A stretch of 64,000 nt of DNA from Candidatus Scalindua sp. SCAELEC01 (GTDB lineage Bacteria > Planctomycetota > Brocadiia > Brocadiales > Scalinduaceae), in NCBI GenBank assembly GCA_004282745.1, contig SHMT01000004.1:62001-126000 (forward strand). The letters run 5' to 3'. This document shows positions 56,209-60,206 of the stretch, piece by piece; positions within the stretch are counted from its first letter, which is position 1; the number at the start of each line of letters is the position of its first letter. Under the pieces are notes generated by a model. The model had not been told where the DNA came from and ran no database searches. It saw only the letters and a list, made by a program, of their open reading frames with translations. A program made the translations under genes and the position numbers.

Positions 56209-57585
56209 TTATAAATAGAGATCTCTTTTACCTTGAAGAAGTAATTCCATATAGTCCGAAGTTGTTTTTCTGATATGTGGATCTTCAATTTTGTGAAGCT
56301 CGGAAGAGAGGAAATCCTTAATCTTTTGGGACGACTTTGGCATATGATCGAGAAGGTACTCCTCGAATGTGAGAAGAGCGTTTGGATGACAGAGTTTTTT
56401 TATCTCTCCTGGTTTCGCAAGGTCCATAAACTTCTCCCCAGTTCTACCCGAACGATAACAGGAGGTGCAGAAGCTCGGGAGAAACCCCATGGTAGCCAGA
56501 TTTTCTACCACTTCTGTAAGCGAACGGTTGTCAGATGTGTTAAATTGTCCAGGAGGATTACCACTGCCACTGTAACCTCCCGGGGCGGTCTTTGAACCGG
56601 CCGATATCTGTGATACACCAAGATGGAAGAGCTCATTTCGCAAGGATTCCTTCTCCCTTGTTGAAAGGATGATGCCCGTATAGGGAACGGCCAGTCTGAG
56701 AATTGCAACAATCTTTTTTAGTTCTCGGTCTGAAACTTGATAGGGGGGATGATTGGAAATTTCAGATCCGAAGGCGGGTTCAATTCGTGGGATTGAGATA
56801 GTATGCGGTCCTACTCCAAACCTTTCCTCAAGGTGCAGTGCGTGCAGGAGAATTGCAAGAACCTCAAATTTGTAATCATAGAGACCAAAGAGCGCCCCAA
56901 TACCCACATCGTCTATACCGGCTGTTTGAGCATCGTCGCATGCATGGAGCCGTTTCAAATAGTCAGACTTTGGCCCGCTGAGGTGCATTTTATTATACGT
57001 ACTCTTGTGGTATGTCTCCTGGAATAGCTGATAGGTACCAATACAAGCGCTCTTTAGCGTTTTGAAATCTTTCACTTCCATGGGTGCAACGTTCACATTT
57101 ACCCGTCTAATGGCGCCGTTTCCGACCTTAGTTTCATAGACGGTTTTGATAACTTCTTTTAAGTAATCAATATTGGCTGCTTGATCTTCTGCTGAGACAA
57201 GGAGTAACCGTTTGTGTCCCTGTGCGATGAGGGCCTTAGTTTCCTCCCGTACCTCATCTTTGCTCAGAATATGTTGGTTGCTATTTGAGGACTCTTGGCT
57301 AAAACCACAATAAAGACAGCGGTTTATACATCTATTTGACAAATAGAGTGGTGCAAACAGTACAAGACGGTTTCCGTAGATTGAACCTTTGATCTGTCTG
57401 GCAGTGGCAAAGATTCTGTTCAGTATGACCTCATCTTCACAATTGAGAAGGAGCGCCGCTTCCGCGGGATTTAGACCTTTTAATTCTAAGGACTTATGAA
57501 TGATAGTCTCAACACTTTGATTGGAAGGCGTTTGTGTTTCTTTCAAGATATCGAATATGTTGACTTCATTAATAAAGTTTTTCAT
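56209..57585 (-). CDS. hydG: HydG-type radical SAM tyrosine lyase ([FeFe] H-cluster maturase)
   Basis: This 458-residue protein has both iron-sulfur sites of HydG. The radical SAM motif CINRCLYC (C86, C90, C93) is present, and so is the C-terminal CTSCYRSGRTGEKFM with a third cysteine 22 residues later (CX2CX22C). Known HydG cleaves tyrosine and builds an iron complex carrying CO and CN. SAGSKTAPGGYSGSGN and FQETYHKSTYNKMHLSGP are conserved TIM-barrel parts. It follows the HypC-HydE fusion gene by 42 bases on the same strand, so the two should be co-transcribed. No HydF or hydrogenase is in the window. Confidence 0.9.
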   Translation of the reverse strand: MKNFINEVNIFDILKETQTPSNQSVETIIHKSLELKGLNPAEAALLLNCEDEVILNRIFATARQIKGSIYGNRLVLFAPLYLSNRCINRCLYCGFSQESSNSNQHILSKDEVREETKALIAQGHKRLLLVSAEDQAANIDYLKEVIKTVYETKVGNGAIRRVNVNVAPMEVKDFKTLKSACIGTYQLFQETYHKSTYNKMHLSGPKSDYLKRLHACDDAQTAGIDDVGIGALFGLYDYKFEVLAILLHALHLEERFGVGPHTISIPRIEPAFGSEISNHPPYQVSDRELKKIVAILRLAVPYTGIILSTREKESLRNELFHLGVSQISAGSKTAPGGYSGSGNPPGQFNTSDNRSLTEVVENLATMGFLPSFCTSCYRSGRTGEKFMDLAKPGEIKKLCHPNALLTFEEYLLDHMPKSSQKIKDFLSSELHKIEDPHIRKTTSDYMELLLQGKRDLYL

Positions 57586-57627
57586 ACCTGTAGCTTTTCT
57601 TTTAAAAAAAGTATCATCGTTCCCTAT

Positions 57628-58923
57628 CTATAAACCCAAATCAGTAGGAGCCCTTCCAATGGATCTCAGTAATAGTTGTGCTTCTGTTACCTGGTCTTCT
57701 AGGGAGATGTCGCCTCTTGCTCTGGACGGGTAAATATCGTAGAGAGCTGCAAAGTTTGTAGGTGTCAAGTTTAACATTACTGAATTTGCCCCACACAAAA
57801 GGGCCTGTCGTTTTGCTTTTGGGTATAAGGACTCTAGGGCCGTTGTCACCAGAATTTTTCCATAGGGGTCGATGAGTCGTAAAACAGAAAGGGCCTTGAG
57901 TATAGACCCTACATCCGGGGCTTTATACCCTGAAAGTGGCGTACCAGGATGCGGTATAAATGGACCAAAAGAGTACATATCAGCACCCAGCTCTTTTGCA
58001 AGCAGAAAATCGTCAATAATGGTTTCAACATTTTGTTGAGGAAGGCCTATCAGGCTGCCAGTAGCAATAAGGTAGCCAATATTCTTAAGGAGCTTGAGAT
58101 ACCTCATCCTCTCTTTTAAAGATGAATGGGGATGCAACTTTGCATAGAGAGCATCATCTGAAGTTTCAAATCTGAATAGGACAGCCCTTGCACCGGCTTC
58201 AAATGCCCGTAGATAAAATGCATCTTCTCTTTCTCCAACGCTGAGAAAAAGAAAAACCGGATAATGTTCCATTATCATTTTTATTAAATTCAAGATCTCT
58301 TTTGAGCTATAAGAGGGATCTTCACCCGATTGAAGTACGATTCCCTTAAATCCAAAACGTTCGACGGCATTTCCAACAATATCGCGAATCTGTTTGGGGG
58401 TGAGGCGATACCGGGTAAGGTTAATGTTTGATCTGTTTATGCCGCAGTATGCGCACTGGCACATGCAGTTATTAGAAAACTCAACAATTCCATGGACGCA
58501 ACAGGCATTACCCAAAAACTTTTGGCGTATGAAATTGGCTGATTTGTGTAGTACCTCCAATTCATCAAGATCTTCACTTAAGAGTAACCGCACTGCCTCT
58601 TCCCGAGAAATTGAGCCACCGTACGTCGCCTTAGAAATTATCTTGAGAAACCCTTTACTAATAGTTGTCTTGTCATGATGTAGTTTGGAAAGCCGAGTGT
58701 CTGTCTCTTTCAGCTCAAAGAATAGCTCTTTCCAGCTATCCAGGATCTCCTCGGCAAGTTTTTTCCCTATTTTCTGCACAACAAATCCTCCCTGTGCATA
58801 GACGTAATCACCTACTTGGAGGGCGTAAAAATCGTTTCGTGCTGTCCTCTCTTCTCCAAAATAATCTATGGTAATTAAATTATCTGATATACTTTTTACA
58901 TTTCCGGGAATAGCGTAGCACAT
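57628..58923 (-). CDS. HypC-HydE fusion: chaperone domain plus radical SAM maturase
   Basis: This protein has 431 residues. Residues 1-70 read as HypC/HupF: MCYAIPGNVKSI with the essential cysteine at position 2, then QVGDYVYAQGGFVVQKIGKK and a helix. The usual VHxGFA histidine is replaced by glutamine. After a linker (70-105), residues 110-431 are HydE-like: EFSNNCMCQCAYCG (C153, C157, C160), LQSGEDPSY, GSLIGLPQQNVETIIDD and FGPFIPHPGTPLSG. HypC carries the Fe(CN)2CO unit for [NiFe] hydrogenases; HydE processes the HydG product for [FeFe] hydrogenases. Joining them in one chain is unusual. The frame is continuous with no stop or gap between domains. Confidence 0.85.
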   Translation of the reverse strand: MCYAIPGNVKSISDNLITIDYFGEERTARNDFYALQVGDYVYAQGGFVVQKIGKKLAEEILDSWKELFFELKETDTRLSKLHHDKTTISKGFLKIISKATYGGSISREEAVRLLLSEDLDELEVLHKSANFIRQKFLGNACCVHGIVEFSNNCMCQCAYCGINRSNINLTRYRLTPKQIRDIVGNAVERFGFKGIVLQSGEDPSYSSKEILNLIKMIMEHYPVFLFLSVGEREDAFYLRAFEAGARAVLFRFETSDDALYAKLHPHSSLKERMRYLKLLKNIGYLIATGSLIGLPQQNVETIIDDFLLAKELGADMYSFGPFIPHPGTPLSGYKAPDVGSILKALSVLRLIDPYGKILVTTALESLYPKAKRQALLCGANSVMLNLTPTNFAALYDIYPSRARGDISLEDQVTEAQLLLRSIGRAPTDLGL

Positions 58924-58939: not shown

Positions 58940-59115
58940 CATTCAACATGTATCGATTTATAAATTTCTACACAAAAACACTCTAACCTACCATAATTCG
59001 CCACAACTTACCATCTCTCTGGAACTAGGTTAACCGGTTTTAACGGCTACACACCAGGGGCATATACCTGGTTTTGGTTAAAAATGTCAATGAGAATATG
59101 CAATACAGGTAGTTA

Positions 59116-59371
59116 GTGTCTGAACGAAAACCCTGTATTTGAGTGAAAAGTGCCCAGGTACACTCATCTCATAATGGTTTTCGGATAAAATCCGAGATAA
59201 AATTGAGCGAGTGTAACTGCAACCAAGATTTAGTTGCCGGTAAAACCGAAAACCAAATCGGTTTTAGTATACAAGGCGCGTAACAATTTCGTAACCGGAA
59301 CGTACAATTGTACTTGAGGAGTTCGAAATTTTTGCAGTAACGTAGTAGATGGGTAGTTTTCGTTCAAACAC
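59116..59371 (-). mobile_element. Composite MITE copy F (256 bp, with nested element)
   Basis: The outer ends are GTGTCTGAACGAAAAC and the complement of GTTTTCGTTCAAACAC. The flanks TAGTTA (59110-59115) and TAGTCA (59372-59377) differ by one base. At the GGTA/CAAGG position of the outer element a 109-bp inner element (59161-59269) is inserted with a duplicated TA. Subtype as copy A (GTACAATTGTAC core). Confidence 0.9.
59161..59269. mobile_element. Nested 109-bp TA-targeting element in copy F
   Basis: It begins CACTCATCTCATAATGG and ends CGGTTTTAGTA, bounded by TA on both sides (59159-59160 and 59270-59271), while uninserted MITE copies read GGTACAAGG across this point. The internal inverted arms include TTTTCGGATAAAATCCGAGA and ACCGAAAACC. 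It has no coding capacity. TA duplication is typical of IS630/Tc1-mariner relatives, which is inference here. Confidence 0.8.
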
Positions 59372-59533
59372 TAGTCAGCAGTTTTGGTATAACCAGAGGG
59401 TCTCTGTTCAGGTGTGGCGTATACAGTGAACAAAAAGAGAGCAAAAACAGGGGGAAAAGTGAACGCACGCAATAAAAAACACCCATTCCTCGCTACAAAT
59501 GGAATATTTCTCTGCGCTACAGTGAACTATTTA

Positions 59534-59789
59534 GTGCGTGAACGAAAACCCAGTGTTTGAACCGAAACTGCCCAGGTACACTCATCTCATAATGGTTTTC
59601 GGATAAAATCCGAGATAAAATTGAGCGAGTGTAACTGCAACCAAGATTTGGTTGCCGGTAAAACCGAAAACCAAATCGGTTTTAGTATACAAGGCGCGAA
59701 ATAATTACGTAACCGGAGCGTACTCAAGTACGTGAGGATTACGTCATTGTTGCAGCAACGCCGTAGATGGGTAGTTTCCGTTCAAACAC
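59534..59789 (-). mobile_element. Composite MITE copy G (256 bp, with nested element)
   Basis: A perfect 6-bp duplication TATTTA (59528-59533 and 59790-59795) flanks it. The outer part belongs to the copy B subtype (GTACTCAAGTAC core, ATTACGTCATTG arms). The nested 109-bp element sits at the same TA as in copies F and H and differs from that of copy F by one base only. It lies 162 bases from copy F in the same orientation. Confidence 0.9.
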
Positions 59790-60206
59790 TATTTAGGGTT
59801 CTGACGGAGTTGATAGGCGTATGGTATAAAAACAAGTAGGAAAAGGTGTGTATGGTTTAGTAAAAGAAATAAATTTAAAACAAACCTTATAATTACTCTC
59901 TCTTCCTCCTTCTCCCTGAACATCCTCCTGACACGTGTTCAGCTAAGAAAATTTGGCAATCACTGCCGGATTTCCTATAAGCGTTATGAGCTAAAAAGGA
60001 AAAGAATGTTATGACAAAACTTGCTAAAAACTTAACTAATTGAGCGCCATACACACCTTCTCCTTTCATTATACAAAAAAAACTGTTGATGTCAAATAGG
60101 AAAAAATAAAAAATTATGAAAAATATGTTTAAAAAAGAGTAGCACTTCTCATCTTCTTTCTCTTTACGTTACCCTTTTTAAGGCCTGTTTATCGAAGGTA
60201 ATACGC

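Follow-up and report, generated by a model that had tools for sequence, protein, structure and literature searches.

A genome of the Candidatus Scalindua family, a group of anammox planctomycetes, contains, within the window (the whole stretch of 64,000 nucleotides analysed here), an operon of hydG and a hypC-hydE fusion gene, both on the minus strand and 42 bp apart. Our main conclusion, to which we give a probability of about 0.8, is that this operon is an alternative [NiFe]-hydrogenase maturation system, with HydG and HypC~HydE replacing HypD, HypE and HypF in making the Fe(CO)(CN)2 unit. To our knowledge, HydG and HydE are known solely from iron-only hydrogenase assembly. Among marine anammox bacteria, and also in one archaeon, the pair occurs exactly where the standard HypD, HypE and HypF machinery is missing, which points to a second way of building the [NiFe] site. 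The displacement of these three proteins by HydG and the fusion is well supported by the genome comparisons; the chemistry, we infer, would consist of tyrosine-derived CO and CN and their hand-over to HypC.

The hydG and hypC-hydE genes

The hydG gene (56209..57585, minus strand) encodes a protein of 458 aa belonging to the tyrosine lyase/Fe(CO)(CN) synthase family. It scored 513.9 bits against TIGR03955 (E 3e-154), above the cut-off of 312.15, and 497 bits against the crystallised HydG 4WCX. In 14 aligned sequences, both cysteine motifs were invariant: the radical-SAM CX3CX2C (C86/C90/C93; 57307..57330, minus strand) and the C-terminal auxiliary-cluster CX2CX22C (C373/C376/C399; 56389..56469, minus strand), which also aligns with 4WCX. 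The gap to the fusion gene covers 57586..57627 (minus strand); several relatives have a 4-bp overlap between the two genes. The original prediction of a complete hydG with both motifs, 42 bases past the fusion gene, was thus accurate. Known HydG converts tyrosine into an Fe(CO)2(CN)-cysteine synthon that is handed to HydE (PMC12752695, PMC11736057). Judging from its sequence, the HydG of the window probably cleaves tyrosine to CO and CN on iron.

The hypC-hydE gene (57628..58923, minus strand) encodes 431 aa. PF01455, the alignment and an AlphaFold model place a HypC domain with a linker helix at residues 1-78 (58690..58923, minus strand). The HypC domain proper (residues 1-64) scored 46.8 bits against PF01455, above the cut-off of 28.5, and 38.1 bits against the TIGR00074 subfamily, below the cut-off of 48. 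The HydE radical-SAM domain (residues 100-402; 57718..58626, minus strand), delimited by TIGR03956 and Thermotoga maritima HydE structures, reached 250.5 bits against TIGR03956 (E 2.6e-74), slightly below the cut-off of 254.6, which is exceeded by the HydE domains of relatives (276.3 bits in genome G031, 260.3 bits in an archaeon). When scored as HmdB the domain gave 61 bits against 250 bits to HydE, and as PylB it also scored lower than HydE, so both assignments were rejected.

The 17 full-length fusion sequences could be aligned end to end. The CX3CX2C motif of the HydE domain (C153, C157, C160 by alignment; 58444..58467, minus strand) is invariant in all 17 and in six [FeFe]-type HydE. Every fusion retains Cys2, the cysteine of the N-terminal Met-Cys of the HypC domain, which is essential for the interaction of HypC with the large subunit (PMC12134894). 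The canonical HypC histidine, present in 16/16 canonical HypC proteins from HypD-bearing genomes, is found in 0/17 fusions (Gln in 12, including that of the window, and Ala in five), as might be expected if its HypD partner is gone.

The AlphaFold model of the fusion had a pLDDT of 88.8 and a pTM of 0.90, and its HypC part consists of strands within residues 7-52 followed by a helix at 54-78. Compared with T. maritima HydE structures, including complex-B-bound forms, the HydE domain showed 37-38% identity and target-normalised TM values of 0.89-0.96. Forty HydE positions are invariant across the fused and [FeFe] types. The fused type also carries fixed core changes, including R64 to H, T144 to F and H170 to F (numbered on the T. 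maritima chain, whose N terminus has about 10 extra residues); R64 and T144 presumably line the complex-B pocket. In the tree, the HydE domains of the fusions group together (support 100/99), apart from [FeFe]-type HydE.

Upstream of hypC-hydE, a 1.3-kb stretch without a long open reading frame holds two direct copies of 269 nt (59110-59378 and 59528-59796), which are 88% identical, contain inverted repeats and are perhaps a small non-autonomous mobile element. The search for an RNA element around the operon gave no Rfam match. An archaeal-type SAM synthetase gene adjoins hypC-hydE in two Scalindua loci (L003 8520-9722 and L001 7311-8513).

Distribution of the pair and its association with [NiFe] hydrogenases

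The window genome (4.59 Mb, 98.6% complete) has no HypD, and neither HypE nor HypF above cut-off. We surveyed 62 genomes of the order, mostly incomplete metagenome assemblies. HydG and the fusion occur in an identical set of 17, none of which has HypD (found in 23 of the 62), HypE above cut-off (23) or HypF above cut-off (22). Among the 31 genomes that carry a [NiFe] large subunit and are at least 90% complete, 14 have HydG plus the fusion and 17 have the Hyp system, with none having both and none neither; every near-complete [NiFe]-bearing genome outside the first group has at least one of HypD, HypE and HypF. Neither system was found in five [NiFe]-bearing genomes, all of them 77-86% complete. 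Among [NiFe]-bearing genomes, the Fisher p of 1.6e-7 is inflated by shared ancestry, and separate events therefore count for more.

We considered whether HypD, HypE and HypF had been missed through fragmentation and rejected this, as they are absent in 17/17 fusion genomes, several of which are 99-100% complete and one of which (G032) is a single contig. HypE-like matches of about 105-125 bits were likewise rejected as HypE: they are superfamily relatives below cut-off that also occur in Hyp-bearing genomes, and most end before the end of the model, where canonical HypE carries its PRIC tail. HypB is absent in Scalindua, as it is in most Hyp-bearing anammox genomes.

On a contig other than that of the operon (C80), the window genome encodes a group-3-like [NiFe] hydrogenase with ferredoxin-like, flavin, small and large subunits and a maturation protease (TIGR00072, 137.8 bits). 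The large subunit has the RICGIC...DPCISCATHLMKVEFVNE cysteine motifs and the C-terminal tail. Across the fusion genomes, the cysteine motifs are conserved in the large subunits, most of which also have the C-terminal tail and an accompanying protease gene. The complete ones also keep the Arg of the APRG/AARG motif and the Thr of PTxxN, which we take to be the cyanide partners. The dN/dS values of about 0.04-0.3 for all three genes indicate purifying selection, which is strong on the large subunits. Each of three large-subunit lineages is accompanied by Hyp proteins in some genomes and by the HydG pair in others. The literature examined documents no H2 activity in these organisms.

Several gene neighbourhoods join the pair to [NiFe] genes. 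In G031, one strand carries hypC~hydE, a PIN-domain gene, hydG, hypA (97.6 bits against TIGR00100, above cut-off), hypB, three small open reading frames, and the small and large hydrogenase subunits; G039 has a similar cluster. The PIN-domain toxin-like gene and the other small genes of G031 are insertions that separate hypC-hydE from hydG and hypB from the subunit genes (L120 8405-8791 and 11347-12497). A second [NiFe] operon of G039 is syntenic with those of the Hyp-bearing G040 and G044, with large subunits 86-88% identical. From it hypE-hypD-hypF has been deleted, leaving a 5' hypF scar beside a cysC-like gene (L136 15825-16049, contig C86 of G039). In G030, a Scalindua-type hydG lies 19 bp upstream of a [NiFe] operon and was apparently acquired by transfer, because the hypC-hydE of this genome belongs to the other type. 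The expected place of hydG in G030, between hypC-hydE and hypA/hypB, is occupied by a type I restriction-modification system (hsdR, hsdS, hsdM; L124 6767-14685, contig C66), and the small subunit at this old locus is truncated. The fusion lies about 4-14 kb from [NiFe] genes in G052, G048, G046, G051 and G045. An archaeon (G062) has a fusion 46% identical to that of the window, with hydG adjacent, together with group-3-like and group-4-like [NiFe] large subunits, a HypA-like protein and a protease; HypD and HydA were searched for in this genome and neither was found.

In the single-contig genome G032, hypB is in pieces beside an intact hydG/hypC-hydE pair (L122 5756-6040). No hydrogenase subunit genes lie beside this pair, and a group-3-like [NiFe] operon is located elsewhere in the genome, at C1:3970999.

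Proposed route and competing explanations

In the standard pathway, HypD is the scaffold, and HypE and HypF provide cyanide from carbamoyl phosphate. We propose that HydG would instead cleave tyrosine and build iron with CO and CN, and that the HydE domain would take this mononuclear iron complex and remodel it, exchanging ligands to Fe(CO)(CN)2. The tethered HypC domain would receive the unit via Cys2 and pass it to the apo-large subunit like free HypC, from which the large subunit receives Fe(CN)2CO (PMC12134894). Nickel insertion, with HypA and HypB in some genomes, and C-terminal proteolysis would follow as usual, and HypD, HypE/HypF, HydF and HydA would all be dispensable. The flow of CO, CN and iron, the order of the steps and the conversion of 2 CO : 1 CN to 1 CO : 2 CN are presumed. 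The analysis supports the original prediction that another CO/CN-iron cofactor is the target of the pair, and we can name the candidate as the [NiFe]-hydrogenase Fe(CO)(CN)2 unit. Its further suggestion that HypC replaces HydF fits as regards an acceptor role but missed the main point, the replacement of HypD, HypE and HypF by the pair.

Ligand stoichiometry is the weakest point of this proposal, as the established product of HydG is Fe(CO)2(CN), not Fe(CO)(CN)2 (PMC12752695). Two tyrosine turnovers would supply two CN, and therefore one CO must be lost. The [NiFe] site might instead retain the ligands as HydG delivers them, Fe(CO)2(CN), which would make it a third kind of organometallic hydrogenase centre. 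We consider this unlikely, since retention of the Arg and Thr cyanide partners argues against it.

The strong family membership of HydG and the good similarity of HydE would suit ordinary [FeFe]-hydrogenase maturases, with HydF and HydA encoded elsewhere in the genome. This is extremely improbable, and for near-complete genomes it is already refuted. The observation that neither HydF nor HydA lies near the operon extends to the whole genome: HydA (PF02906) gave no match in the assembly to which the window belongs and 0/18 in the fusion-bearing genomes, while the T. maritima control matched. HydF above cut-off occurred in 0/62 genomes of the order, including all 17 bacterial carriers of the fusion, with GTPase-domain matches only; one control genome exceeded the cut-off. 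For HydA, this excludes an origin elsewhere in the genome in 18/18 of the fusion genomes searched; for HydF, it does so in the 17 bacterial fusion genomes. Since HydF is absent, a HydE making the dinuclear [2Fe] precursor for HydF is unlikely here. The [FeFe]-type HydE homologs examined also have no HypC domain, besides forming a separate group. The pair may alternatively build some other CO/CN-iron cofactor for another enzyme, its [NiFe] association being coincidental or indirect. G049 (88% complete) and G056 (94%), which carry the pair with no [NiFe] large subunit detected, would agree with this, as would the several HydE core positions unlike those of the [FeFe] type. We nevertheless judge it very unlikely, given one gene cluster that joins the pair to hypA, hypB and the genes of both hydrogenase subunits, a hydG heading a [NiFe] operon, the complete mutual exclusion with HypDEF in near-complete [NiFe]-bearing genomes, and the fusion to HypC, a protein known for binding [NiFe] large subunits.

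HydG might also give CO only to [NiFe] maturation, with cyanide made by a HypE/HypF-type route that involves an unrecognised enzyme. The source of CO in anaerobes, which a 2025 review calls the most pressing open question (PMC12134894), and the weak HypE-like proteins of the same superfamily in all genomes leave room for this. It is quite unlikely, however, because neither HypF nor HypE reaches its cut-off in fusion genomes, most of the HypE-like matches break off before the PRIC tail, such matches also turn up in Hyp-bearing genomes, and HydG produces both ligands. Decay of parts, as in the broken hypB of G032 and the truncated small subunit at the old locus of G030, could suggest that fusion genomes carry [NiFe] hydrogenases which are immature or relics without function, with the pair as an unrelated remnant. 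This is barely credible against the conserved cysteine motifs, the tails and protease genes kept in most, the strong purifying selection on large subunits, and the Scalindua-type hydG placed upstream of a [NiFe] operon in G030.

Comparison with known maturation systems

Six Hyp proteins are regarded as necessary for the [NiFe] cofactor (2025 review, PMC12134894), and synthesis based on HypCDEF is said to be well conserved (PMC9431212). HydG with HypC~HydE would be a second pathway to this cofactor. In the open-licence literature searched we found no description of such a route; all its parts come from known families, and the combination and its apparent job are new relative to that literature. 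Organisms that include anammox bacteria of the nitrogen cycle have kept [NiFe] hydrogenases without HypD, HypE and HypF, and instead have an enzyme of the family that synthesises CO/CN-iron from tyrosine. If the proposal is true, the biosynthetic routes to the [FeFe] and [NiFe] sites converge, the question of where CO comes from receives a concrete, testable answer for these organisms, and biotechnology may gain a way of making the iron part of the [NiFe] site with just two genes.

With the [FeFe] maturases HydG and HydE (TIGR03955, TIGR03956; 4WCX, 3CIX/7O1O), the pair shares the families, the radical-SAM motifs and the HydG auxiliary-cluster motif, and the model of its HydE barrel matches complex-B-bound T. 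maritima HydE. It differs in lacking HydF and HydA and in having a HydE that is fused to HypC, forms its own group and carries fixed core changes. With the Hyp system (HypABCDEF), it shares what is apparently a common client ([NiFe] large subunits from the same lineages), as well as a HypC domain with Cys2, the maturation protease and, in some genomes, HypA/HypB; here, however, HypD, HypE and HypF are absent, the HypC histidine is lost, and HydG and HydE stand in. HmdB and the other [Fe]-hydrogenase cofactor enzymes are alike in placing a radical-SAM enzyme in an iron-carbonyl cofactor pathway. The aerobic HypX route of Cupriavidus necator also provides an auxiliary CO source for [NiFe] maturation, but HypX uses formyl-THF and adds to the Hyp proteins, whereas here HypDEF are missing (PMC12134894).
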